Assembly: GCF_039555335.1 (NCBI RefSeq)
Contig: NC_092635.1
Location: 48,938,052-49,002,051 of the forward strand
Reading direction: 5' to 3'
DNA length: 64,000 nucleotides
DNA from: Amphiura filiformis
Taxonomy: Eukaryota; Echinodermata; Ophiuroidea; Amphilepidida; Amphiuridae
Both the position numbers and the translations under genes were made by a program. Positions 6,253 to 50,400 of the stretch are shown piece by piece. Under the pieces are notes generated by a model, which saw only the letters and a list, made by a program, of their open reading frames with translations, ran no database searches and was not told where the DNA came from. Every line of letters begins with the position of its first letter. Positions within the stretch are counted from its first letter, which is position 1.

Positions 6253-6632
6253 ACACCAGGTCTAACGTTGGACCTGGTCTGTGGAGGTTAGACTTAGGGA
6301 GAGACACCAGGTCTAACATTCGACATGGTCTATGGAGGTTAGACTTAGGGAGAGACAACAGGTCTAACATTAGACATGGTCTATGGAGGTTAGACTTAGG
6401 GAAAGACACCAGGTCTAACATTAGACATGGTCTATGGAGGTTAGACTTAGGGAAAGACACCAGGTCTAACATTAGACATGGTCTATGGAGGTTAGACTTA
6501 GGGAAAGACACCAGGTCTAACATTAGACATGGTCTATGGAGGTTAGACTTAGGGAGAGACACCAGGTCTAACATTAGACATGGTCTATGGAGGTTAGACT
6601 TAGGGAGAGACAACAGGTCTAACATTAGACAT
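6253..6632. repeat. 51-bp minisatellite, left part (about 7.5 units)
   Basis: The unit contains AGGTCTAACATTAGACATGG, then TCTATGGAGGTTAGACTTAG and GGAGAGACACC. Because 51 is divisible by three, the array is open in several frames and gives 17-residue repeats on both strands; these are not supported as proteins. The array continues after the inserted element at 8157. Confidence 0.95.
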
Positions 6633-8156
6633 TAGGGTGCATCTCTTGCCCCTCATGTTTCACAAATTTCTTGTCCCTAGTCTCAAAATGTTCCATTGGT
6701 CAAAATATTACCCCATACCAAATTTAAAATTATTCCGAAGTCGTTTGGGGGGGCCTCCGTGACGTTGAAATTGTTGGTCAATTGCCATACCATATGCATA
6801 AGGCAGCTATTTTGTTTTGCATGATTAACATTAGAAATTACTGCTGCCTTATGTATTTTGCCCATGTAGTTAGGACTATTATGATTCAAGATGTTAAAAA
6901 AGCTAATGTCCCAAAATTTAACAAAAGGGAGCTATCTACAAGGACCAAGTTTATGTAAACATAAATGGCTGCCCTTTGCTGTCTTTTCTGTGCAATTGTG
7001 AAATTACTTAAATATTCATAACTTTCCTGTTTCCATGCCAACTTTGAACCGTTAGGCTGATAATTACTACTACAGACTATAGTGATCACACACTTGCATC
7101 TAGACCTTGCTGAATTTGATGAGACAACACACACACTACAGGACTGAGGTTCTTCAAATCTTGATTTGGATATCTCCGACTGGTACTGGCATGATCATTT
7201 ACCTTATCGGCTTTATACATTGTCTTTGTTGTTGCCGTTTAAGCTATAGTGCTTCTCCTGTGTTGGTACTTAGTCAAATGTCACTGGAGAATGCAACTGC
7301 AAAGTGTACCATTTTGTTTGGTTGTACACTGCAATTTTCTTTTATGTAATATGATTTAACTGGCACTTTTGAAATTATATGATTCACATACTAACCTTTG
7401 TATAGGTCTATGAATATTTCCATGAGGTACATGTAGTTCTTGGATTGGAACATCAATTCAAGTTCAAGCAGATTATTGGGAACAAAAGTTATGCCATTCA
7501 TCTGGCCTAGCATCTACAATGCTCTGGAATCTTAAACTTAACTTCTGAGTTTGCTCACTAATGCAATTCACAACTTCGCGAAATCATCTCTGCTGAGAGC
7601 TGCGGTCTGAAGATTTGAAGGACCTTAGCCTTCCATTCTTTTTAACATATAACATGATGCTGTCTCATCAAGTTGAGCAAGGTCTATAAATGTACAACTT
7701 GCAAGTGTGCGATCACTCTTCTGTAGTAGTATCAGCCTAAGGTCAAAGTTGGCACGAAAACAGCATAGATATGTATATCGAAGCAAATTCACAATTACAC
7801 ATTAAATACAGCAAAGGGCAGCCATTTATGTTTACATAAACTTGACCTCTGTAGATAGCTCCCTTATGTTTTATTTTTTTGAGTTAGACTATTTTAACAT
7901 CTTGATTCATTAATAGTCCTGACTACATGAACAAAATACATAAGGCAGCAGTAATTTCTAATGTTAACCATGCAAAACAAAATAGCTGCTTTATGCATAT
8001 GGTATAGCCATTGACCAACAATTTCAACGTCACGGAGGCCCCCTAAACGACTTGAATAATTTTAAATTTGGTATGGGGTAATATTTTGACCAATGGAACA
8101 TTTTGAGACTAGGGACAAGAAATTTGGGTAACATGAGGGGCAAGAGATGCACCCTA
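6633..8156. mobile_element. hAT-type element with ~500-bp inverted arms, inside the 51-bp minisatellite
   Basis: The ends are TAGGGTGCATCTCTTGCCCC and its exact inverse. They are flanked by an 8-bp duplication, TTAGACAT, at 6625-6632 and 8157-8164, and that octamer is part of the minisatellite unit. TIRs beginning YAGGG with 8-bp duplications are characteristic of hAT transposons. The inverted arms extend about 500 bp (to roughly 7135 and from roughly 7640). The unique centre encodes nothing recognisable, so it is non-autonomous. Confidence 0.9.
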
Positions 8157-8396
8157 TTAGACATGGTCTATGGAGGTTAGACTTAGGGAGAGACACCAGG
8201 TCTAACATTAGACATGGTCTATGGAGGTTAGACTTAGGGAGAGACACCAGGTCTAACATTAGACATGGTCTATGGAGGTTAGACTTAGGGAGAGACACCA
8301 GGTCTAACATTAGACATGGTCTATGGAGGTTAGACTTAGGGAGAGACACCAGGTCTAACATTAGACATGGTCTATGGAGGTTAGACTTAGGGAGGG
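8157..8396. repeat. 51-bp minisatellite, right part (about 4.7 units)
   Basis: Same unit, same orientation and same register as 6253-6632, so the two blocks were one array of roughly 12 units before the hAT-type insertion. Confidence 0.93.
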
Positions 8397-8746: not shown

Positions 8747-11176
8747 ATGATGGGTGACAGGCTCTACAATGTTTTCCTTGTTGGTTTTCTTATGTGCTGT
8801 GTTGATATCAACTGTTTTGACATTACAGAAGACATATGTCCTGGGAAAGTATATGCAAATAAAAACTGTAGTAACACTAGTATGAATAAGCATGCACAAA
8901 TGATGGTGCCAGCATGGCCAATATGGCCATGCGAGGACTGCCTAAACTGTTCCCTTTACAGTGATGACAACATGAAGGAACATTTCTCGAAGACTCTGCA
9001 GAAGAAGCCATATTTTATCTTTCTACAGCTAGACTTTAATGACCCCCCATTCAATGATACAGACTTTCAGTACCTTTCTCATACTTATAATCACATTGAT
9101 CCTTTATTATGGTTCTGGGCACATGGAGAAAAAGGCCGTTTTCTGTTACATTTACCCACCACCTTTCAAGCAATGTCCCTTGGATCCCTCACTCCAGGTG
9201 TTTATACCGCCTATCTCAATATTTCTATGGAATCATGTCCTCACTTTAATAAACTTTGTGACAATGATAAACTTGAAGTTTTGGCGCAACATATTTTCAA
9301 TGTCACTGAAGAAGTTGCTTCATCATGTTCTGAAGATTCATTACAATTTGATGAAGACACTATGGTTTGTCAAGATAAAGCAGTTGATGTGTTCGGCAGG
9401 GCATTTAATAATTTTCTCGCCACACATGGGTTCGACTATCTTGTAATGTACCAATCTGAAACAGAATGTTGGAATTTTAATGGTCAACCACTGGGTGCTG
9501 TTGTCAGCCCTTATTGGTTTTTAAAAACAGCGCTAATCTTTGCTATTTTCATTCTAATGTCGTACCCACTTTGTACCTTGTCCCTAATTCGTACAAATCT
9601 GCCAACACCTGTGGTGAAGGCTATTCAGACTCCACGTCCAAACAGAAACAATCAAATTATCATATTCATAGGGAAACATATGGAAATAGGCGTTGGTATA
9701 AAACACTTACTGTTGCATATGACAACAACTCCAGTGAGGATTATGCGAGGTATTTTGTGTCTCTCTATTCTCGTCCTCATTATATATCCCGGTATTACAG
9801 TTCGAAACATTTTTGATGACTCGAACGTAAGTTTCAAGCGATGGCAAGCCTTCTTTAGAATGGATTATGTAAACTGCGTCCTCTACACATGCTTGGAACA
9901 AATTCCTCTAGTAATCGCTCTATGGGGGTGCTTTGAGGTGTTTTATCTAAGGAATGGTAAACACTACCTTGAAAATATCCTGAAAAATAACCCAATGGAA
10001 AAAAAATGGCCAGTTATAAATTTGAGTATTTTTACACATGAGAACAGCGAAACCAGATTTGACGATAGTTGTGGAATGATTAGAGAGACAGGAGTTCCAA
10101 GAGATTTTGCCATGCGTCAGTTAAACACAGTGCTTGATTGGCGTCAGTTCAAAATACCTTACCATAACATAATACAGTACTGGGAAAACAAATCTAGGTA
10201 TGTAGGTATTGTGTTGTGTGTTTGCTATTACATTATTTTCCTACCGCCTATGTGGATAATGTCCTTCCCTGGACTTGATCCTCTCAGGCGACTCATAGTT
10301 AGGGTATTTCAGGTTTTGTTCAATCTTCTCCGATCATTTGCCACATTTGCAAAATGGGTTTATTCAGATACCATGTCCTTAAAAGACGAACTCAAGAAAC
10401 TGTGGCCATATGGTGTTGATGATATTCTAAACATCATAAGACTGGGAGTGTTATTCAACTTCTCTCTCCGATTTTTGGCATTTGTGTACTTGTTGGCAGA
10501 GGTTGCAGTCCATATCTTGTCTGGAATAGTACTCAATTCTGGAACAGTTACTGCAAATTTCATACTCGTGATATTTTTGATTGGTTTTACATACGAAACT
10601 ATCACCTCCATTCCTGATACATATTACGCCCTTCTTTGTACAATGATTGATATAGTATTTGAAATGATAGACGAGCAAACTCTCATAGGTTTCATTCCTG
10701 CAGAATTATGGCACAGGGATACCAGTGGACAAAATCTTATTGCTGAACAATTCTTCTGGGACATAGCTGATATTTGCAAACCGTTGAGAATAGTTGTAGT
10801 TGATGCCATGATGAAAATATTTCTGGTCGGATTAGGAATAGGAACCACAGTTTCTCTATTAAATCAGGTTCATACAAATGAAGGCAACTGGCCTGACCTA
10901 CTAACAAATATTATTTTTTTTGTTAGCGTTGTTATTTTACCAAAATTATTTGAAATGATGGGTTCCAAAGTGGACAAGCGACGACAAAATGAAATCCTTT
11001 GTAGCCAGATTCGAAAGGAAATCACAAGATATGTAGAACACATGCAAGAATTATGCGCAATTCAACTGAAAACGATTCGACAGACTTCAACTGACAACGA
11101 TTCTATTGACAATGATGAGGAAACGAAGCTTGATACAACAGCACAAAATTATGGAACAATATCACAAAATTCTTAA
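8747..11176 (+). CDS. Multi-pass membrane glycoprotein, 809 aa, family not recognised
   Basis: One uninterrupted frame codes for a secreted-ectodomain membrane protein. Residues 6-22 are hydrophobic and look like a signal peptide. Residues 24-255 form an extracellular region with cysteines at 31, 41, 62, 65, 68, 164, 171, 194, 208 and 241 and N-glycosylation sequons at 40, 43, 67, 103, 158 and 185. Membrane segments follow near 257-280, 332-352, 375-401, 485-507, 562-597 (perhaps two), 600-622, 681-705 and 718-738. Residues 739-809 are a charged, Ser/Thr/Asn-rich tail, probably cytoplasmic. The first of two adjacent Met codons was taken as the start; both give the same signal peptide. The coding part has no intron, though a splice acceptor precedes it. 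I know no family with this layout and do not assign a transport or receptor role. The long frame, codon order and topology make it a convincing gene. Confidence 0.85.
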   Translation: MMGDRLYNVFLVGFLMCCVDINCFDITEDICPGKVYANKNCSNTSMNKHAQMMVPAWPIWPCEDCLNCSLYSDDNMKEHFSKTLQKKPYFIFLQLDFNDPPFNDTDFQYLSHTYNHIDPLLWFWAHGEKGRFLLHLPTTFQAMSLGSLTPGVYTAYLNISMESCPHFNKLCDNDKLEVLAQHIFNVTEEVASSCSEDSLQFDEDTMVCQDKAVDVFGRAFNNFLATHGFDYLVMYQSETECWNFNGQPLGAVVSPYWFLKTALIFAIFILMSYPLCTLSLIRTNLPTPVVKAIQTPRPNRNNQIIIFIGKHMEIGVGIKHLLLHMTTTPVRIMRGILCLSILVLIIYPGITVRNIFDDSNVSFKRWQAFFRMDYVNCVLYTCLEQIPLVIALWGCFEVFYLRNGKHYLENILKNNPMEKKWPVINLSIFTHENSETRFDDSCGMIRETGVPRDFAMRQLNTVLDWRQFKIPYHNIIQYWENKSRYVGIVLCVCYYIIFLPPMWIMSFPGLDPLRRLIVRVFQVLFNLLRSFATFAKWVYSDTMSLKDELKKLWPYGVDDILNIIRLGVLFNFSLRFLAFVYLLAEVAVHILSGIVLNSGTVTANFILVIFLIGFTYETITSIPDTYYALLCTMIDIVFEMIDEQTLIGFIPAELWHRDTSGQNLIAEQFFWDIADICKPLRIVVVDAMMKIFLVGLGIGTTVSLLNQVHTNEGNWPDLLTNIIFFVSVVILPKLFEMMGSKVDKRRQNEILCSQIRKEITRYVEHMQELCAIQLKTIRQTSTDNDSIDNDEETKLDTTAQNYGTISQNS

Positions 11177-12214: not shown

Positions 12215-15085
12215 TGATGGAATTATTTTTATTTTATTATTAGATCTTATTTTGCCTGGGGAACAAACTCAGTGGTCCACACTGATTTCCAGTCTGGCCC
12301 AGGGGTCAAACAAAATACATCAAAAATACAAATGAAATACATACAAAAGAATTACATACCATGGATTTAACAAATAACATCATATATGAACACACCAAGG
12401 AAGCACATCTGTGCAGGTCGGCTGCAGTGCAGCAATGTCGGCAGGCTTCAAAGACAGCCCGCAGACAGAGTCCGCACCGCAGCCGACCATCATGCAACAA
12501 CCTGAATAATTTAATAATTTAATTGGTAATTGCACATCGCTTTGAAACGGCCTAGTGTATGAGGTAATGGTACTTTAACCTGGGTTGGCAATGAATTAAA
12601 AGAGAACACGCCTCTGTATGTAAATTTTAGCTTAGCCGACTCGCTCTTACTAAGTGGGATGACCAGATTACCTTGTGACCCTGCTCTAGTCAGGTGGTTG
12701 TGACTCAAGCAACTGTGTGGAATATATTGCACAGGGTGATGGGAGTAGGTTACAAAGGCTTTTGTACACCATTATATTTAGATGGAAATTACGGCGGCAA
12801 TCCAGTTTATCCCATTTCAGGCTGTTGAGAAGTACTTCGGTGGGATATCTGCGTGGGAGCCCCAGAATGATCTTACCAGCTGCATGTTGAAGTTTATCAA
12901 GTCTACTGAGGGATGTCTTAGCAGCGTTGCCCCACACAGTATCGCAATAATCAAGTTGCGGAATGATGAGCGTTTTATACAAAAGAATGAGAGTTTCCTT
13001 GGGCAAGATGTTTCTCAGCCTTCTTAACAAACCATTACGTTTAGAAAGCGGAGCTTGAAATCTTCTCAATGTGAGAAGACCAAGTGAGGGACGGGTCCAG
13101 CCAAACACCTAAGTATTTGAACTTCTCAACATTCTCGATGACAGACTCATTGATGTAAACCTCAAGCTCCATGTCTTTACGAGCAAGTTTTTGGGCAGTA
13201 CCTAAAATCATCCCTTTGGTTTTTTTAACATTTAGTGTGAGGAAGTTGTGGTTTAGCCACTCAGCAACGTGGGTGAGTTCATAGTTCAGAATGTCATTAA
13301 TGGCCCTGATAGTTTTAGCTCTGACAAAAATAGCAGTGTCATCAGCATATAATGCTACCTTGGAGTCAGGATGGGTAATAACACTTGATAAATTATTGAT
13401 GTACAGGGTAAGAGGAGGGGCCCCAGTATAGATCCTGCGGGACTCCAAAGTTTACTGGAGCAGGACTGGAAACCACATCACCAATTTTAGTGACTTGTTG
13501 GCGATCTCTAAGGTAGGATCCAAACCAGTCAAGTTCAGTGCCATGCACACCTATGCTATGAAGTTTGTTAATCAGGACGTTGTGGTGCACCGTATCAAAC
13601 GCCTTCTTTAGGTCTAAAAAGATAGCACCAGTGGAAAAAACCAGAGTTAAAATTGTCGAGAAGGTAGTCGGTAACACCGAGAAGGCATGTTTGAGTAGAG
13701 TGCATGGCCCTGAAGCCTGACTGGTTAGGAGACAAAAGATTGCAATCTGTGATGTAGCTGTAAAGCTGGCCATGGACCAACTTTTCAAACACCTTCATAC
13801 AGGCCGGGATGACTGATATTGGCCTATAATTGCTAGTGTCCATGTGGTCACCCTCTTTAAATATTGGAGAAACTCTGCTTTTCTTCCATGCGGAAGGTAC
13901 GACACCGGTGGAGAGACTAAGATTCATGATGTAGGTTAGTGGCCTACATAATTGCACGTACCCAATTTTGAGGAGTTTTGGACTGATATTGTCCAGACCA
14001 GTGGCTTTCTTACTATCAATACCTTTGAGAAGCTTAAGAGCATCCTCCTCAGATATCTTAGAGAAAATAAAAGGACTCTCCTCCGGTATCGTCTCTTCAG
14101 TGCAAGGTAGATTGACATTCATAGGGGTTGGTTTGAACAAATGGCATCGGCTAGATTTTGACCTATGTTTGAGAAGAAAACATTGAAATGATTAGCAATT
14201 AAATTACCATCATTGACAATTTCATCACCTATTCTTATGCTGTTGATTGATTGTTGTTTAGAACCGGGAAGCACAGTTTTAACTGTTTTCCACAATTTAT
14301 GTGAGTTTGTTCCAGCTTCATTGATTGAAGACTCAACGAAATTCCGCTTGAGCCTGGTAGCAAGATTGTTAGTTTTGTTTCTGAGGTACCTAAAAGCATC
14401 CCAGTCAACCTCAGAGCAGGTATTTTGGGCATGAGATTTTGCACGCACAAGGTCTTGTCTGCACGCAATATAATCATCATCAATCCACTGAGGAGGATTG
14501 TTTGGAATTTTAACCTGCCTAAACGGGGCGTGAACATCGCAGATGGGAATAAATAAACTTTCAAACATGCCCCATGCCAAGCCGGGGTCATCCGAGTCTT
14601 CAACCGTACCCCACGGAACCTGTTCTAAATCCTCAATAAAAGCAACATCATCAAAGCGGCGGTAAGATCTCGCTTTAATGATGCGAGAAAGGTCCTTTGA
14701 TACGTTTAGGATTTTTTTTTTTTTTTATAATTAAGGAATGATCACTGATGGCAAGTGTAATAACCTCATTTTTAGCGTCATCTCAGGACGGGATGTCCAG
14801 AAGTGGTCTATACAAGTTTTACTGGTTTGAGTAATACGTGTGGGACTAGTAAATATTTGACTGAGTTGGTAAGTATTCATGATGTTAGAAAGTTTTTTTT
14901 TTTTCCCAGTCTTTGGGTTTTAAACCATCACAATTAAAGTCACCAAAACATATGATCTCTCCAGGTGTACGAGATGAGGTACTAATGGCATTCACTTCAT
15001 CCATCACATACTCCAGGTTTTCGAAAAACTGGTTACAAACGTCAGGGGCATATACAATACCTGCCAGTATTGGGGGTGTTTTCGG
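12215..15085 (-). mobile_element. Decayed non-LTR retrotransposon (LINE, CR1/L2/Jockey group)
   Basis: Reading on the minus strand, the element starts inside an apurinic-endonuclease domain (a GDFNCD motif near 14930). A linker and reverse transcriptase follow: NYRPISVIP near 13835, FDTVHHNVLINKLHSIGVHG near 13575, GVPQD near 13450 and the catalytic ALYADDTAIF near 13345. After that come the YLGVWLD and LDYCDTVWGN C-terminal motifs. The frame changes about five times between 14580 and 12511, so it cannot make a full protein. The 5' end is truncated. The 3' part ends in an A/T-rich tail (AATAATAAAATAAAAATAA). Confidence 0.88.
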
Positions 15086-15576
15086 AATGGAAAGATGTGA
15101 TGTTCAGCTCTATAATTGCTTACTTGAAGGGCCTTCATCTAGATAGAATTTGTGAGTTAGTACAAGTAGGTTTGTTTATCCTACATGATCTTGAAGCGAA
15201 CCTTGGAGGAGAAAGTGTGGGATTATATCGGGATGACAGACTACCGGTTCTCAAAAAAATGTACTGGATGAGACACAGATTGCATGTAAGGCAGTCATTT
15301 TCAGGTCATTTTGTAGCCAGGTACCCGAAACCACGACTGAAAATGCCTGCCTTAATCAAATGAGAAAAAAATTGCAAATAAATATTCAAGTTAAACAGTC
15401 TATGGATATCAGTTAAAACAAACCTAAAGGAAACAGGAGGAAGGGGAGAGGAGAGAGCTTGAGAAGGAGGGGAAAGAAAAATATTGGTATTGCCTTACTC
15501 TTTGTGTTGTAAAATGGAAATATGATATTGACAAAACTAATATTAACTTTAATAACTGTCGTCGTCGTGGTCCTAT

Positions 15577-16498
15577 GGGTCATGACTGACCCTTTGTGAC
15601 CCTGTTGATGATGGTATTCCAGCAGCTTCTGTCTTGAGCCAGACGGTGGGCTGCGACGAGAGAAAGGCCTGTTAATTGTTTAATTCCATCAGTCCATCTA
15701 AGCTTCTGTCTACCTCTTCTCGACTGCCTTCTATGTGACCTTGCATAATTATCTTCTCAATGCTGTCACCATCTCTTCTAGAAATGTGGCCAAAATCGCC
15801 AGTTTAAAACGATCTATTTTCTGGGACACGGAAGCATGGTCTCCAATTTGGTTTCTTACAAATTCGTTGGTCTTATGTTCTTTCCAAGATATTCTCAGCA
15901 TCTTCCGCCAGCACCACATTTCAAACGCCATGATCTTTTTCTTATCTGTCATTCCAACCGCCCACGTTTCACAGCCATACAAGGCAATCGGAAAACCAGA
16001 GCATCCATAATATGAATCTTGGTAGCTTTAGAAATACCTCTGTCTTTCCATATATCTGTCAACGCAATTGCCGATGATCTTGCCATGGCTAGGCGTCTTC
16101 TGATTTCCTGGGAACTGCCCCCTGCATTGTCTATTAGTGATCCCAGAAAGTTGAAAGTGTCAACTTGTTCCACATCTTCTCCATTCACCTTCACTTGCTG
16201 ATTTGTATCTCCTCCACAGATCATTATCTTTGTTTTCTTGACATTGAGATGCAGCCCAAATTCCTCACTATTTGCTTTTACTCTGTCTATAAGGTCCTGA
16301 AGCTCATCTGATGACTTTGCAATAAGGGTGGTGTCGTCAGCGTATCTGAGGTTGTTAATCTTTCGTCCTCCGACTGACACCTGACCTGTAACACCAACAA
16401 ATGCTCTCCTCATGATGTACTCTGCATATATGTTGAAAAGGTACGGTGACAGAATGCATCCTTGACGAACGCCTTGGCCAATAGTGAACCACACAACT
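15577..16498 (-). mobile_element. 5'-truncated RTE-like LINE fragment
   Basis: Minus-strand frames encode reverse-transcriptase motifs GVRQGCILSPYLFNIYAEYI (about 16470), LRYADDTTLI (about 16330) and LHLNVKKTKIM. After a frameshift near 15965 comes the C-terminal signature MYGCETWAVG with FEMWCWRKMLRISW, and last TGLSLVAAHRLAQDRSCW close to 15620. This order is typical of the widespread RTE-like endonuclease-reverse transcriptases. The endonuclease half is missing and the frame is broken, so it is dead. Confidence 0.85.
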
Positions 16499-23100: not shown

Positions 23101-26100
23101 AAAAAAGAGAAAAAAATGTATGTAGCATTTTTGTTGCAAGGAAAAAAAAAAAAATCTTCTGTGGCAACTTTTTCCCATTAACATCTGTATAGGCTATTCC
23201 AATTAAAATCCACACTCCCCTGTGGAAGATTTAGCTAGTCTTCCAGAGGGAGTATGAGTTTCGAATAGAATACAGAGTTGGGTAACTTCCATTTGAAATA
23301 CTCACTCCAGTTGTGGAAGATATAGGTAAAACAATAATACAGAGGGAGTATGGGTTTCAAAATGATTAACCTTAACCAATTACATTTAAAAAACATACTC
23401 CCCCTTTGGAAGATATTTCCAAAATCTTTCATATGGGTAGTGTGAATTTCAACAGGAATAGCCCATTTTGATTTTGAACAGAAAACTTCAAAGTTTAAAC
23501 AACCTCCTTGCAAAGGAGTGAATAAAAACTGTTAGCTTATTGGTCATTAAGTGCCAACTCAGAGCATGGGGTACATCATAAAATTTAGATTAAAAAAAAT
23601 TTTTGACACTGGTAGATATCCATGAAAAATCAAAAACCTGCAAATCAGAGCCCGTAACTCCACTTCAATTTGCAGAAATGGCAGGTTTTAATTTTTTTTC
23701 AGAAATCTAAATCTTATGGTGTACATCATATACTGAGTTGGCTTTGAATGACGGTTTTGTATCATCATTACCGCTATAGGTTTGGAGCTCTTGATCTTTT
23801 CTGCTAATTCTGCATAGGACCTTGATGCGAATGGAGCTTGCCCAAACAGACATTCTGAAAAATAAAAAATATTTACAATAACATTAAAGGAAGTCTCTGG
23901 CAATCACAATACTATGCTTTATATGTATAAGAAATAATTATCGAGCACAAATCACATGGCATTATTTACAAATAACTCATAAAAACATGCGATATTCAAA
24001 ATTCCTGGGCACCAACAGTCTGGCGCAATGACGTCATGGTTATTTGTGCTCAATTGTCATCAGCCTTCATTGTATACTGGGACGTCTTTGCACTACACAA
24101 TTTCGGCGCCGGATATTTTGAATATCGTGTGTTGACAGACGGATGTTTTTGTTCGTTTTTATGGTCAATATGAGATTGTTTTAAACCATGAGATTCATGC
24201 TTGACAATTATTTTCTTACTTATAAAGCATGATGTTGTGATTGCCGGAGACATCTTTCAATGGACCATTCCATTTGAAATTCATATAACCCCTATATGGA
24301 AGACATGATCTTAATCTCACACACAGCAAGTGTAGATTTCAAATTGAGTCACCCTAAACCCTCATTTGAAATTCACACTCCCTGTGTGGAAGATTAAGGT
24401 CATGTCTTCCATCGGAGGTGTACAGATGTCAACTGGAATAGCCAGAGTTACGGCTGCACACCCAAGTTGGCTATAGTTGCAATCGCCAAATTAGTGGTTG
24501 TCAGTGTGGGGTGGGGGTGGGGGTGGGTTGAGGTGGTTTGGAGCAAAGTAATGGAAGGGCTCCAAAAATTGCCTCAAATATATAGGAAATATTTTGAAAT
24601 CTTGTCTATTCTTATTGACAGATGAGGTGGAGGAGCAAAGCCTATAATTGGGGGCATTCCCCTTTGCTCCCGGGCTACCACTGGTTATAATTTTCCAAAA
24701 TGTTCTAGTGATATTTGACTCAAACCATACGAGCATAACATTTTCAGAACCATCCCCTCATTTTGCACACTATGTGCAATGATCCTGTAACAATCCAGTT
24801 GAGGTAGATGGGATGAGGATTGGTGTGAAGAAAATCATTATCTGCAGAACTCTTAATGCCTGCAGAATATGAAAGAATTTATCTTCTGTGGGAGACTTGT
24901 TGGGATCTTGGACCTTGTTGGGATTTACACAGCAAGGTCACATGATCTGATCTGAAGGACAACTGTATGAAGAGAGTAGCTAGTGAAAGAGAATTGCATT
25001 ATCATCGCTGGGCAGGAAAGGCCTCCAATGTACTTGTGGCCCTTGAACATGTTTAAAACAAAACTGCCAAGAGGTTACATAGGATGTTTTGCATTAAACA
25101 TATTCAGGGGCCAATGACTCATAGGAGGATTTTCCTGCCCAACAACAATACCACACATGTACTGACAAGTTTGTCTTGTCCATTCCAACTTTTGAGCTGG
25201 GAATTATTTCCTGAACATGTTTATGAAATCTTACCATACATAATGACACCCACAGACCACAGGTCCACTTTGGCATCATATTTACTCTTGCATATGATTT
25301 CAGGTGCCATGTATAATGGAGAGCCTCTTAAAGTGTCGGCGTAAACTTCCTCACTCAACTGTTGCGCAAAACCAAAGTCTGTGGATATATAAGAGACAAT
25401 GTTATTGTTATATAAATTTCATCATAAAACATGTAATCTGAGACAAATGTGTCAATTTCTTAACCCCGATGCTCCAGGTGTTTTTTTCGCAAGGAGGAAG
25501 GAAAGAAGGAAGGAATAAAGAAAGAAGAAGAAGAGAAAACTTTTTTTCACAGGTGAGGTTTTGAACCACAGAGTGGACCCAGTGGCGTACCGACTAGGGG
25601 TGGGGGAAAAGTTTGAAACACTGGGACAAAATTGATAACAATCTGTGATGTGCTTCAATTTTGCCAACCAAGGAAATTTTGATGGTAAACCACCACAAAA
25701 TTAACAAGAACCGGACTACCTATACCGTCACACACATGTGTAAGATATTTGGGTCCTTCCTGTTAGTATGAACGAAAACAATTCTGTGTGATAAATATGC
25801 TTTGCGTCGCTCCTTTGACATAATCAGTACATTGCGACATGAAGTACCAATTAGTTTTGGGTGCATTTCAAGCAAAACACATACAACCCAATTTTATTGC
25901 TCCATGCGCGTATCAAGATGATGATCGAGTCCAGGTTCTTGGTTTAAATCTGTGCACATCATTGAAACTCACCTGCAACTTTGAGTACTGGATCACATGT
26001 GTCTGACAACAGCAGGTTCTCTGGTTTGATTCTGTGCACACCGCTGAATCTCACCTGCAACTTTGAGTACTGGATCACATGTGTCTGACAACAGCAGGTT

Positions 26101-29100
26101 CTCTGGTTTAATTCTGTGCACACCATTGAAACTCACCTGCAACTTTGAGTACTGGATCACATGTGTCTGACAACAGCAGGTTCTCTGGTTTAATTCTGTG
26201 TACACCATTGAAACTCACCTGCAACTTTGAGTACTGGATCACATGTGTCTGACAACAGCAGATTCTCTGGTTTAATTCTGTGTACACCACTGAAACTCAC
26301 CTGCAACTTTGAGTACTGGATCACATGTGTCTGACAACAGCAGGTTCTCTGGTTTAATTCTGTGTACACCACTGAAACTCACCTGCAACTTTGAGTACTG
26401 GATCACATGTGTCTGACAACAGCAGGTTCTCTGGTTTAATTCTGTGTACACCACTGAAACTCACCTGCAACTTTGAGTACTGGATCACATGTGTCTGACA
26501 ACAGCAGGTTCTCTGGTTTAATTCTGTGTACACCATTGAAACTCACCTGCAACTTTGAGTACTGGATCACATGTGTCTGACAACAGGAGGTTCTCTGGTT
26601 TAATTCTGTGCACACCGCTGAAACTCACCTGCAACTTTGAGTACTGGATCACATGTGTCTGACAACAGCAGGTTCTCTGGTTTAATTCTGTGTACATCAT
26701 TGAAACTCACCTGCAACTTTGAGTACTGGATCACATGTGTCTGACAACAGCAGGTTCTCTGGTTTAATTCTGTGTACACCACTGAAACTCACCTGCAACT
26801 TTGAGTACTGGATCACATGTGTTTGACAACAGCAGGTTCTCTGGTTTAATTCTGTGTACACCATTGAAACTCACCTGCAACTTTGAGTACTGGATCACAT
26901 GTGTCTGACAACAGCAGGTTCTCTGGTTTAATTCTGTGTACACCATTGAAACTCACCTGCAACTTTGAGTACGGATCACATGTGTCTGACAACAGCAGGT
27001 TCTCTGGTTTAATTCTGTGCACACCATTGAAACTCACCTGCAACTTTGAGTACTGGATCACATGTGTCTGACAACAGCAGGTTCTCTGGTTTAATTCTGT
27101 GTACACCACTGAAACTCACCTGCAACTTTGAGTACTGGATCACATGTGTCTGACAACAGCAGGTTCTCTGGTTTAATTCTGTGCACATCATTGAAACTCA
27201 CCTGCAACTTTGAGTACTAGATCACATGTGTCTGACAACAGCAGGTTCTCTGGTTTAATTCTGTGTACACCACTGAAACTCACCTGCAACTTTGAGTACT
27301 GGATCACATGTGTCTGACAACAGCAGGTTCTCTGGTTTAATTCTGTGCACACCATTGAAACTCACCTGCAACTTTGAGTACTGGATCACATGTGTCTGAC
27401 AACAGCAGATTCTCTGGTTTAATTCTGTGTACACCACTGAAACTCACCTGCAACTTTGAGTACTGGATCACATGTGTCTGACAACAGCAGGTTCTCTGGT
27501 TTAATTCTGTGTACACCACTGAATCTCACCTGCAACTTTGAGTACTGGATCACATGTGTCTGACAACAGGAGGTTCTCTGGTTTAATTCTGTGTACACCA
27601 CTGAATCTCACCTGCAACTTTGAGTACTGGATCACATGTGTCTGACAACAGCAGGTTCTCTGGTTTAATTCTGTGTACACCACTGAATCTCACCTGCAAC
27701 TTTGAGTACTGGATCACATGTGTCTGATAACAGGAGGTTCTCTGGTTTAATTCTGTGCACACCATTGAAACTCACCTGCAACTTTGAGTACTGGATCATG
27801 TGTCTGATAACAGGAGGTTCTCTGGTTTAATTCTGTGCACACCATTGAAACTCACCTGCAACTTTGAGTACTGGATCATGTGTCTGACAACAGGAGGTTC
27901 TCTGGTTTAATTCTATGCACACCATTGAAACTCACCTGCAACTTTGAGTACTGGATCACATGTGTCTGATAACAGGAGGTTCTCTGGTTTAATTCTGTGC
28001 ACACCATTGAAACTCACCTGCAACTTTGAGTACTGGATCACATGTGTCTGACAACAGCAGGTTCTCTGGTTTAATTCTGTGTACACCACTGAAACTCACC
28101 TGCAACTTTGAGTACTGGATCACATGTGTCTGACAACAGCAGGTTCTCTGGTTTAATTCTGTGTACACCACTGAATCTCACCTGCAACTTTGAGTACTGG
28201 ATCACATGTGTCTGACAACAGGAGGTTCTCTGGTTTAATTCTGTGTACACCACTGAAACTCACCTGCAACTTTGAGTACTGGATCATGTGTGTCCGACAA
28301 CAGGAGGTTCTGTGGTTTGAGGTCCATGTGAGTTATGTTTTGAGAATGCAGAAATTGCAATGCACTAGCTGTAATTCAAATGAAATTTACAAGTTTACAA
28401 AACTTTCAGAAATCAATATACACAGCTTTAAAAATGATGAATTTATTGTACAAAAATACTATTGTGTAATAAATAAATGTTTCTTTTGTGTAATAAACAC
28501 CTGGTATCATAAACACATCACAAAAAGTAATTACCCTCCTATAAGGCGAAGAAAAAAGAAAACCCTGTTGTACAGGCCCGACCGACCCAGATTTTGAACA
28601 AATTGGGGAAAAAATTTTCCTGTACAATTGAATGCCAACCCAAATTTTGGAAATTTCAGGATTTTTTTGTATTTCCTAAAATTGCAAATTACTTACAGAT
28701 TTTGGTGATTTTTTGGGTCATTTCAAAACAAAAACAAAAAAAAAAAAAGGCCAACCGACCGACCTACTTGACAACCGTCCGCCCGCAGGACAGGGTTTCT
28801 TTTTTTCGTCGCCTAATATGAGACAATAACTCAAAATCTATGCATCAAATTATAAACCTGAAAAAGTAAAAAAAACCCATTTTAGTTCTGCAAATTGTGA
28901 AACCTCATTTGTCTGGATAGTCAAAATTTGTAGCCATGGTGACTTTTTGAACGAAAAAGGAAAAAAATTCAAAAATTGAACTGAAGAGCTACTCGTCCGT
29001 ATACCAGTGTATTTTTTACATGACTGGTCAAAGCAAGGCCCATGCAGAAAAAAGTAGCAAATTGCACAGGGGAAATGGTCAATTGCATGGAGAAAAACAG

Positions 29101-44400: not shown

Positions 44401-47400
44401 GATAGGAAACGAGGTACATCCTAGCGGTACCTTATTTCTGATCATAAATAACAAACCGCTTGTCTAGGGTCACTGAAATTGAGTGAAGTAATTGGATTCC
44501 TTGCTATAATATACATAACTTTTGTTACCAGTGTGTTATTAGTTTTCTAGAAAATGCAAAAATAGACACAAATTTATAGAGAAGTGTAGTACCCCTTAAT
44601 CATTTTGAAACCCACACTCCCCCCTGTATATGACTTTAAGTTTACCTATATCTTCCACAATTGGAGTGAGTATTTCAAATGGAAGTTACCCAATTGTCTA
44701 TTTTATTTAAAACTCATACTCCCTCTGTGGGAGACTTTAGCTAAATCTTCCACAGGGGTAGTGTGGAAATTAAATGGAATAGCCCAATATGTTATGTTCC
44801 CCTACTCCTTCACCCAATAAATGTTCCCAAATATTTATCAGTTTTCAGATGTTTAAACTGAATCATCAGATTGTTGATGACACTGAAGCTGTTACCATGG
44901 TAACCAAAGATGTTGTAAGAGAGTTTGCAGAAGATGGAGTTAGTTACTTGGAGCTGAGGAGTACGCCTAGGGATGTGCCACAGACAGGTAGGGTTAATGG
45001 AAAAGATAAATTCGCAGTAGCAGAATGGTCAACTGAAGATCCGTCGGATATCGCTTTTTCAGTGGGAAATGAACTTTGCTGCTTGGATGGTGTCACAATG
45101 AGGTTAGCATTTATTCCGTAATGAAAAGCGTGTTCTGACGGATCTGCACGCGACCGGCCTCGTAGTCCCATAAATCATTTTGATGGTAAGGTAATAGAAC
45201 TGATATTAGGTGATTGTCACACAGTCATTGATGGACTTCATGTATTGGAAATCCAAAAATCTTCCACACCTTTTCCCGGATTTTGGATAAAAATGGTTTG
45301 ATCTGGAATGGTTCAAACTGTTAAATTTTGTTTGAATTCAAAATCTCCCACAGCAGTGGTATGAATATCAAAAATAACCCAATGTGCTGTGGATTATCAG
45401 ACCTAAATCAGCTCATACTAAATACCTCAAAATTGGATACAAAAAATAAGTAGATGGGTGAGTGCCAGTGTCCACTTTAGGCTATTCCAGTTGAATTCCA
45501 CACCCCCCATGCAGAGTCTTAGCTAGAAATTGAGGTTTGCCCGTCATTTGAATAAAATTGCCTGTCCCAATTTGACCTTTAAAACATTTACCAGACATCT
45601 ATAGCCCATTGGGGGTTCAAATATGTGCTGATATGGCCTTGTTCTACAAATTGGGTTTACTAAAAAGGTCAATTAGCTTCTTAAAACATACAATTTATAA
45701 TATAGCATCTGTCAAAGGCATTAATTTTGCCCGTCCCAGGAGTAAACTCCCCGTCTAAAATGGCGGCCAAACGGGTGGCTAGCTAAGACCTTGCCCCCAT
45801 GGAAACAGGGCCTCAGATCCGACGAGAATCACAGAATCGATTCTCATAATGATTCTGGTAATTTGTTGCGAGAATCAACTTCTTTCATTAAATCATGCAT
45901 GCAGTAAGTAAAGCGACTCAGATGGTTTTTGATTCTCGCAAACTGGCATGAAAAAAAAGGGGCCCTGGGAAGACATGACCTTGATCTTCCACACAGGGAG
46001 TATGAATTTCAAATGGGAGTGACTCCATTTGAAATAGACACCTCTACAAGTAGTATGGGAGATTTAATAAGATTAAGGGGTGTATGCATTTCAATTGGAA
46101 TAGCGCATGCTGTGATAATACCTCATCCAGATCATGGAGCGATTACCAAATATGGTGCAATTTTACTAGTCTTATTGCAAGACTGCCCTACCCCAACCCT
46201 AAACCGTAACCCTAAACTACGTAAACGGGGACTGGACTCAACTCTAGCAGGTTGCACCCTATTTGGCAATTATACCCAGATCACAATAGAATGAAAGACA
46301 GGAAACATGCAAAACTTGCCAATTCAACAAGCGCCAATCATATTTTTTTCAATTATTCGATTTATGTTAATGTATTCTAGGTATGACAAAACGGAGCTAC
46401 ATTGAGACAGTACTGAATGCTTTTCAACAATGTCAGGAGGAGGGAATAGATATTATTGTCAGGTAAAAACATTAAGAGGCAAAAATGAGAATAGTGGAAT
46501 TAGTAAATGCTACTGATCTCTGCAATGTGGAGGGCTAACCTCAGTCTTGCATTTCTTGCTTGCTGTAAATGCTACTAACCTCTGCAATGTGGAGGGCTAA
46601 CCTCAGTCTTGCATTTCTTGCTTGCTGTAAATGCTACTAACCTCTGCAATGTGGAGGGCTAACATCAGTCCTGCATTTCTTGCTTGCTGTAAATGCTAGT
46701 ACTAACCTCTGCAATGTGGAGGGCTAATCTCAGACCTGCATTTCTTTCTTGCTGTAAATGCTACTAACCTCTGCAATGTGGAGGGCTAACCTTAGTCCTG
46801 CATTTCTTGCTTGCTGTAAATGCTCCTAAACTCTGCAATGTGGAGGGCTAACCTCAGACTTGCATTTCTTGCTTGCTGTAATAATGGAATCAGTAAATGC
46901 TACTAACCTCTGCAATGTGGAGGGCTAACCTCAGTCCTGCAGTTCTTGCTTGCTGTAATAATGGAATCAGTAAATGCTACTAACCTCTGCTATGTGGAGG
47001 TCTAACCTCAGTCCTACATTTCTTGCTTGCTGTAATAATGGAATCAGTAAATGCTACTAACCTCTGCAATGTGGAGGGCTAACCCCAGTCCTGCATTTCG
47101 CATTTCTTGCTTGCTGTAATAAAGACATCAGTAAATATGCTACTAACATTGAGTGTCCTATGTGATTATGCCTGGCAATGATCTTATCATTATGTAATAA
47201 ATATTATGCTAGATATAAATCTGTGCCATAAAAGAACAGCGTAAGAGATTGAGAGGGGGAAAATGAGAGAGAGATTAAGAGACATTTGGGGTGAGAAATA
47301 GAGAACAAAGTAATTTCTCAGTGTAAGGGTATTATAGACAGGGTTAAATGGATGATAGAGTATGATGTGTTTTCTTTGTCAACAGATTTATCTTGGCTAT

Positions 47401-50400
47401 AGACAGAAGAAACAGTTTAGAAACAGCTGCAGAAACTATCAGATTAGCAGAGGAATACAAGGCTAAGAGTGGAGGCATTGTTGTAGGAGTTGACCTCAGT
47501 GGAGATCCTCTGGTATGAAACAAGCACAAATCCCACCCTACACCCCCACACACCATCCTTGGTAATTGTATTGATTGTAGCTCCATGTCTATTCCCCTGA
47601 CCCTAGCCCCTGAGGCTCTGCCTGCCCTGTGTCCACTTTTATGTGAAGTGTATTATGATCTATGTCCTCAGTTGTAGGCATAGAAAACAGGCATTTGTAA
47701 CATTGCACTCCACTAATGCACATGCTGTGCAGGACCGATAATTCAAGTGCAAACAGTATGTTTCCACACGCTCTTTTTATATGCAATTTTTGACCCTCAA
47801 TTTGGTGTTTGTTGGACAAGATCAGTCAAAAGTAGACAACAAGACTATTTTTGTTGGGCAGGAAAAACCTGCTATGTGTCATTGGCCCCTGAACATGTTT
47901 AAAGCAAAACTGCCTACCCCCGGTATGTAACCTTATGACAGTTTTGTTTTAAACATGTTCAGGGGCCACAAGCACATAGGAGGGTTTTTCTGCTCAATGA
48001 TGCTCTGTTGTTAGGCATGTTGAGTGTTAAGTTTATTTCCTGGCAATATGGTCCATTTAAAATGACAAAATTGTTTGGGGGTTGCCCGATCGTGGTAATT
48101 GGCCCACACTTAACACAAAGTAGGGGGTAGGGCCATTGGGCTCCTGTTCTGGAGCTACTGTATGTTTTGTTTTTTTCAATTTATTTGTAATTTAAAGAAT
48201 AATGTCAACTATATATTTCCAAAAGTATATTCTTTGAATTTGACCTGTTGGCAATTTGAAGTTGTATCAGGCAACTTGAAAGTGTAGCTGCTAAGCTCCC
48301 AAATTTGGTACAGTTGTGCACTTAGTGCATGATAGTTTTTACACATGAAGCACATGGACCAAAGTGTATTTTAAGACGTGGAGGCATTTTGGATATGACC
48401 CCTAGTGACCACTAGAGGAGTCTATTTCCATTGACCATATTCATTCTTTTGCAGGTTGGTGATGCAAGGCAGTTTATTCCATTATTACAGCAAGCAAGAA
48501 CTGCAGGACTGAGGTTAGCCCTCCACATTGCAGAGGTTAGTAGCATTTACTGATTCCATTATTAGGCAATAGAAAGAAATAAGTTTGATCTTTCGATCAA
48601 CCATTGATGCTTGGTTGATCCTTATTATTTTATGAAATCAATTTATTAATTTTGATAACATATGAATCTTAGTATGTTTTGATATTGACCAATATAAATT
48701 TAGCATTAATTCTCATTAATCAGTTTTTAGTTCATTAATAACAAGCATCGAAGCAGATTGATGGTCGATCCAAAGATCGAACAAATTTGTTTCTCATGCC
48801 TTACAGCAAACAAGGAATGCAGGACTGAGGTCTCCCCTGCACATTGCAGAAGTTAGTAGTATTTTTGCAAGCCAAGTCCAACTCACAAGTCCTTTTGTCC
48901 AAGTCCCAAGTAAGTCAAGTCATTTTGAAAAAGTTGCAAGTCAAGTCAAATCACAAGTCATCAAATCACAAGTCAAGTCACAAGTAAGTCACAATTTGTC
49001 ACAAGTCACTACAAGTCTATTCACCAGTTGGTCATGGTGTGATTTGTTGATGGGTATTCAATATGGCGGAAATCAAATTGAGTTTCGGAGTATAGTACTA
49101 ATAAAGTCTGATGCACTAATTACTATAAAAGTGAAGCTTATTATAATTGTATACAATGGTCACATTGGTAGTTCAAGAACAAGTTAAATTGTAAATTATT
49201 CATGAATTCTACGGTACATCCATAAATTTCAAAGTAACCTCAGACTTGCGTTGGTGACAAGTCATTTTTGTCAAGTCCAAGTCCAAGTCATTTTGTCTAA
49301 ATCACAAGTAAGTCAAGTCATTTTGCAAAAGTTGCAAGTCAAGTCACAAGTCCCAAAAATAGTGACTTGAGGCAGACTTGAGTCCAAGTCACACGACTCG
49401 AGTCTACATCTCTGTCATTTACAGCTCACAATTAGTAAATTCAAGCTCTGCACTTCACATATCGTCGCCTGGGTGACAAAACCTTGTATCTCACTTTTTG
49501 GTGATTTTGTAGCTAGCAAGCCAAATTTTTTCTATATCTATCTGCAATAATAAACCCACAGTTACATACAGGGTGTACAAAACACTGTTTATTGACAACG
49601 GAAGGCAGCCATTTGTGCTAATATTTCAAGACAGCAGTGTTCTTTTGCTCTCCTGAACATTCCACTTTTTGGAAACAAAAGGTTTTATCACCCCAGAGAC
49701 GATATGTGCATCTACAGTCTGTGCAATTAGGTTAGAAATTTGATAAATAGTGCAATCGAAATGTACGCATACCAATGTGTGTGTGCAAGAACATGTTTGT
49801 GCATTTTAGTCAGTTCTGAATTTTATATAATAGTAGTTTTATTAGAATCAAGACAGGAATTGTTAGGAATAAAGTGGCGTAGCGTGAGTCATCCCATTGG
49901 GGGAGGCACCGACCATGATTGGGGGGCACTGGGCCTGATTGGTGTGTCCGTAACGCGGAGGTGGATCCAACCATGCCAACACTCTTGTGATTGGTTGTTA
50001 TTTTCATTAGTATCCAAGGTAGTGGGTTTGTGTGGTATTTTGAAATACTATCACGGTCGGATCGCATACAGCGGTTGGCAACTATGTACATTAAATGAAA
50101 TAGTTACAAAGAGATCAGGATGTCGAAACTAGGGTTTGGGCAAGGTGTGGCAACCTCTATTCACAATTTGCTCTAAAATCAGTGTTTTTTTCATACCATA
50201 TTTTGCTCTAAAATCGGATTTGTTATCATACCATTTGTATTATCCTAGAGATGCCATCAAGCAGCAGAGAGTCTGGCATTACTGAACATCCCCACAGACA
50301 GGATAGGCCATGGGACATTCCTACATCGGGTTGAAGGGTCGCAAGAACTGGTGGCAGCAACACAACTTCACAGCATTCCTTTAGGTAAATATTTTGTGCT

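Follow-up and report, generated by a model that had tools for sequence, protein, structure and literature searches.

Tandem repeats that extend across exon-intron boundaries, termed "mirages", have been described in the amphioxus globin genes and in Adh3 (PMC3087553), and further cases have been reported in troponin C and PGBD5, the latter with three units of 108 bp (PMC3902484). The founding paper on the Adh mirage is Nucleic Acids Res 2002, 30:2871, as cited in later work. Two haplotypes of BflGb6 carry mirages of 6 and 3 units. The amphioxus mirages showed concerted evolution and length instability, which at Adh3 was also somatic; regular splicing was undisturbed as judged by reverse transcription polymerase chain reaction (RT-PCR) (PMC3087553). 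In the present study, we analyzed a window of 64,000 nucleotides from the ophiuroid Amphiura filiformis (NC_092635.1, positions 48,938,052 to 49,002,051 of the forward strand; the positions below count from the first base of this window), in which most of intron 4 of the ULK3 gene consists of repeated copies of the end of exon 4 and its 5' splice site. The hosts of the described mirages are cephalochordates, and in the literature searched, with most subscription papers outside the search, boundary-spanning arrays were recognised only for amphioxus and none for ULK3. We consider that the ULK3 array is probably a boundary-spanning intronic minisatellite of the mirage type, mostly tolerated and without a dedicated function.

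According to its sequence matches, the host gene is ULK3. The spliced model of seven in-frame exons had its best PDB match in 6fdy (Serine/threonine-protein kinase ULK3, E 4.6e-115), followed by ULK1 (1e-65), and exons 4 and 5 and the donor are in frame with human ULK3. Exon 4 encodes HMDLKPQN and ends in VA, and the DFG motif opens exon 5 (Table 1). The array begins inside exon 4, where the end of the exon and the start of the intron read ...GTACTCAAAGTTGCAG|GTGAGTTTC on the minus strand, and it occupies 2,332 of the 2,885 nt of the intron (28263-25932). Tandem Repeats Finder returned a period of 82, 29.2 copies and 96% matches. Together with a motif count, this confirmed the exon-donor unit proposed in an earlier note on this DNA: each unit of 80-82 bp holds the last 55 bp of exon 4 and 27 bp of intron, joined at the donor GCAG|GTGAG. 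The same note had counted about 28 sense decoy donors behind an exon that ends at 28264, and both statements were right: 29 minus-strand donors with the motif GCAGGTRAG stand head to tail, the authentic donor first and 28 decoys after it, with the first intron base at 28263 for the authentic donor, 28181 for the first decoy and 25972 for the last. The spacing between donors is 82 bp in 25 of the 28 intervals, 80 bp in two and 81 bp in one, and the donor reads GCAG|GTGAGT in 24/29 units and GCAG|GTGAGA in the other five. This anatomy is not due to chance, because CAGGTGAGT is confined to the array within the window (24 minus-strand copies, 24/24 inside the array, and 0 on the plus strand). A search for an exact 23-mer of the unit in viral_contigs gave 0 matches and was uninformative.

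Several likenesses connect this array with the amphioxus mirages. First, the repeated unit lies across an exon-intron boundary, and the series opens with the authentic boundary itself. In Adh3, BflGb6, BflGb9, troponin C and PGBD5, too, the units span such a boundary, many of them carry AG/GT signals, and the repeats lie beside the authentic boundary (PMC3087553, PMC3902484). Second, the splice signal has been retained, since all 29 units carry GCAGGTGAG. Third, the units show concerted evolution with the boundary unit excluded, a pattern also described for BflGb6 (PMC3087553): the mean pairwise identity is 96.2% among the 28 decoys, compared with 92.2% between the authentic unit and the decoys. 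Differences are also apparent. The array has 29 units, far more than the BflGb6 and PGBD5 repeats mentioned above, and it keeps a strong donor in every unit. On the amphioxus side, regular splicing and length instability have been reported.

The distribution of differences among the units provides a more detailed view of this homogenisation. Compared with the decoy consensus, the authentic unit deviates in five columns out of 82; the deviations are confined to columns 6-31, and columns 32-81 are identical. Exchange thus seems to have extended over the donor and the 23 exon bases next to it, with the outer part of the exon shielded. Nineteen distinct sequences occur among the 28 decoys, and their order along the array (ABCDEFGHIBCJCKCDLMNOPQCCCRDST, with A as the authentic unit) is irregular, with no recurring block of more than two units. 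This irregularity speaks against block duplication by the assembler. An assembly error that hides a true copy number far below or above 29 would have a precedent in an amphioxus globin array reported as aberrantly assembled in a draft (PMC3087553), but we consider an error of this kind unlikely. In the proposed history, a tandem duplication across the donor would have left the authentic exon and its donor at the head of the series, so that everything behind them became intron; slippage or unequal exchange might then have expanded and homogenised the copies. An origin of the array from short direct repeats was considered and rejected. Although AAACCA(C)AGAACCT is present at both ends, the local alignment that contains it has a score reached by 43/2000 shuffled pairs, and a last copy cut short would give the same appearance.

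The consequence of decoy use can be read directly from the reading frame. Read-through past the authentic donor meets a TAA at intron bases 27-29 (28237-28235), 53 nt before the first decoy junction, and therefore all forms of exon 4 extended to a decoy share one premature stop, regardless of the number of units included. The earlier note had placed this stop within about two units; in fact it lies in the first intronic unit, ahead of every decoy. The sequence supports its expectation that a decoy would lengthen exon 4 by about n x 82 nt and lead to a truncated kinase, with the cut predicted before the DFG motif of exon 5. The spliceosome would be expected to use the first donor, because under exon definition, counted from its acceptor, exon 4 then has an ordinary size (105 nt), whereas exons ending at decoys would measure 187 nt upward. 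Slips to a decoy would all lead to the same product with an early stop, a potential target of nonsense-mediated decay (NMD).

Several observations weigh against the view that the array is a tolerated mirage. In duplex energies calculated with the U1 5' end, 24 of the 29 donors, including the authentic one, pair with U1 at -12.4 kcal/mol and the five GTGAGA decoys at -11.3 kcal/mol, values that compare with -5.3 to -9.6 kcal/mol for six other ULK3 donors and -4.2 to -8.4 kcal/mol for three donors of an ADAL-like gene in the same window. Competition by decoys is therefore plausible, as their U1 pairing is equal or nearly equal to that of the authentic donor, and position must decide if the first donor is the one used. 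In addition, the exon 4 acceptor has the lowest pyrimidine content in its tract (0.53) of ten acceptors, the others ranging from 0.65 to 0.76, so that exon definition may be weaker than assumed. The longest invariant run of columns (21) covers the exon end and the donor, although 10.4% of random placements reach this length. Published work also points in this direction: it was noted that mirage units might be recognised as cryptic splice sites, with aberrant transcripts or newly formed introns as the outcome (PMC3087553); the introns of amphioxus VCBP3 hold partial exons with canonical splice sites, and VCBP clones in human cells gave diverse RT-PCR products, some with stops or frameshifts (PMC2632668); and many intronic sites presumed unused in human genes were found to be usable (PMC10809524).

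In one alternative, a fraction of the transcripts would use the decoys and meet the same early stop, so that the length of the array sets the amount of surviving ULK3 messenger RNA (mRNA) through NMD. The position of the stop before any decoy, the U1 pairing of all 28 decoys and the weakest acceptor tract of ten would all suit such a rheostat. However, the decoy donors show no excess conservation. Sixteen of 82 columns vary among the decoys (8/55 in the exon part and 8/27 in the intron part), and one of the nine donor columns is variable; 29 of 82 circular nine-column windows are equally or more invariant than CAG|GTGAGT. Selection on the decoy donors accordingly found no support, as the conservation of the donor does not stand out from the rest of the unit, and there is no clear evidence that decoys have been either kept or purged, in a test whose power is low with 28 recently related units. 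Moreover, comparable amphioxus repeats were reported not to produce aberrant mRNAs (PMC3902484), and most decoys would probably define unusually long exons. We thus regard the rheostat as quite unlikely.

The decoys might instead recruit U1 small nuclear ribonucleoprotein (snRNP) and in this way strengthen the definition of exon 4 or silence intronic polyadenylation (poly(A)) signals. Candidate signals are present, as ATTAAA occurs at intron bases 25-30 after 27/29 donors and one AATAAA lies at 25898, just beyond the array; but a single chance ATTAAA in the founding unit would explain all 27 copies. It has been reported that U1 binding beyond a natural donor can favour inclusion of the exon (PMC5933811) and that intronic poly(A) sites are suppressed by U1 (PMC5499120, PMC3826338), and an exon whose acceptor tract is the weakest of ten might benefit from such support. 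Against this stand the donor conservation, which does not exceed the background, and the predicted accessibility: the chance that the 9-nt donor is unpaired in plain local folds was 0.000 for the authentic donor and 0.001 on average for the 28 decoys, compared with 0.051 for the region. A docking function for U1 is, in our judgment, very unlikely. No special fold was found in a three-unit stretch (z +1.52; 190/200 shuffles were at least as stable), and masking of the decoys by RNA structure was likewise rejected, because local accessibility does not separate the authentic donor from the decoys. The earlier suggestions that the array tunes ULK3 output or sequesters U1 therefore failed to gain ground, as there is no excess donor conservation and no special fold, and the published cases are reported or thought to splice normally; a functional "ladder" reading of the decoys found no support in this analysis. 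The remaining suggestion, that the array may simply be tolerated, is the one that we judge likeliest.

Another possibility is that the decoy units supply small exons of their own. The array contains 27 acceptor-like TT(G/A)TCAG sites, 24 of which close a micro-exon of exactly 30 nt with the next donor; the inclusion of such exons would keep the frame and add repeats before DFG, and the authentic exon has TCGG where the decoys carry TCAG. AGGT repeats are known as dual-specific sites in human UBC and have been treated as a route to new introns (PMC10809524). The preceding tract is weak (mean pyrimidine content 0.49, compared with 0.53-0.76 in ten real acceptors), the gaps of about 52 nt between micro-exons would be below the usual size of metazoan introns, and additional residues ahead of DFG would probably impair the kinase. 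For these reasons, we consider micro-exons of this kind extremely unlikely. The likeness to UBC is that AGGT is present in every tandem unit, which holds for 29/29 in ULK3. The UBC repeats, in contrast, are ubiquitin monomers with both intron ends in the repeat (PMC10809524), whereas in ULK3 the 82-bp unit changes the reading frame and exon 5 is not part of the array. The ULK3 array also resembles intron gain by tandem genomic duplication (PMC4974935, PMC3087553) in that an exon segment bearing AGGT has been duplicated. A gain of intron 4 by this route was rejected, since the duplicated unit does not hold both ends of the intron. Exon 5 with its flanks, used as a query, matched only itself within the window; the acceptor of intron 4 is therefore outside the repeat, and the duplication of the array did not make the intron.

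The array is also of interest for what it could reveal about splicing. Twenty-nine near-identical and near-consensus donors in series behind one acceptor constitute a natural test of donor choice, and how the spliceosome picks one among identical donors is a long-standing question. Junction reads from ULK3 would show whether position decides the choice, and if the length of the array varies between individuals, the locus would measure the cost of decoys.

A second array derived from an exon-donor boundary was observed in the same window. The exons concerned encode an adenosine deaminase-like protein, with a match to PDB entry 8qch (E 4.5e-53) and a match to Pfam A_deaminase obtained with a query whose final exon contained an error. 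Ten further copies of the exon d donor boundary were matched in the window: one in sense orientation at 48801-48864, and nine in inverted orientation within 46490-47122, in an upstream intron. The copy in sense orientation is a genuine second tandem copy, because 64 of 77 positions agree once an insert is set aside; this insert of 236 bp (48565-48800), which is flanked by TTA at either side and has imperfect inverted termini, resembles a miniature inverted-repeat transposable element and splits the tandem pair. A 12-bp repeat 77 bp apart was considered as the founding direct repeat and was dismissed, as it is the start of this second copy separated by the insert. The inverted array could form a duplex with exon d and its donor in the pre-mRNA (-184 kcal/mol, 110 pairs, longest run 89 bp), which would enclose the exon at 47386-47512. 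The potential of this inverted array to interfere may exceed that of the array in ULK3.

Three array families with at least 4 copies and a period of at least 30 occur in the window (51, 62/77 and 82 bp), and two of them span a donor. As the ULK3 array was the starting point, only the ADAL array is an independent observation. The chance that at least one of the two other families spans a donor was 0.028 with the 11 identified donors or 0.055 with 22 assumed donors, figures that are rough because the window is not fully annotated. The recurrence in ADAL makes a habit of this genome likelier than a device specific to ULK3, consistent with a tolerated mirage. A bolder proposal would be that exon-donor junctions are amplified again and again in this genome and can be put to new use, as a sense ladder in ULK3 and as an inverted duplex looping out an exon in ADAL, with array length as a heritable and unstable splicing dial; we hold this to be improbable.

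Table 1. Positions of the ULK3 and ADAL-like features in the window, with the strand and the source of each assignment.
Feature	Position	Strand	Basis
ULK3 exons, joined	35286-35185, 31959-31819, 29646-29526, 28368-28264, 25378-25235, 23854-23772, 20198-20043	-	spliced model
ULK3 exon 4, catalytic-loop exon, 105 nt	28264..28368	-	spliced model, PDB match
Authentic 5' splice site of intron 4, GCAG|GTGAGT	28258..28263	-	sequence
ULK3 intron 4, 2,885 nt	25379..28263	-	sequence
ULK3 exon 5, starting within the D of DFGFAQQL	25235..25378	-	sequence, self-comparison
82-bp minisatellite, authentic exon end and 28 decoy units	25932..28318	-	Tandem Repeats Finder, donor count
28 decoy donors, GCAG|GTGAG(T/A)	25967..28181	-	motif count
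TAA ending every read-through from exon 4 into the array	28235..28237	-	translation
ADAL-like exons	44849-44987 (last base by frame), 46381-46462, 47386-47512, 48455-48535, from 50249	+	spliced model
Exon d of the ADAL-like gene, from which the second boundary array derives	48455..48535	+	BLAST, spliced model
Exon d donor boundary, second tandem copy, split by an insert	48553..48864	+	BLAST, alignment
Inverted array of the exon d donor boundary, 62- and 77-bp units, in an upstream ADAL intron	46490..47147	-	repeat finder, BLAST

Other features were observed outside these two genes. Remnants of reverse-transcriptase genes lie on the minus strand at 12686-16494, with matches to RVT_1 at 15949-16494 (E 3.4e-18) and at 13595-14140 (E 6.6e-06, below the curated cut-off). 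An open frame of 809 aa at 8747-11176 had no Pfam match at E 0.001 and shows several hydrophobic stretches by eye. Finally, the 51-bp minisatellite (6253-6632 and 8156-8394) is split by a fold-back element of about 1.5 kb, whose arms of about 500 bp align with each other (6634-7129 with 8155-7658), and by eye ATTAGACAT is present on both sides.

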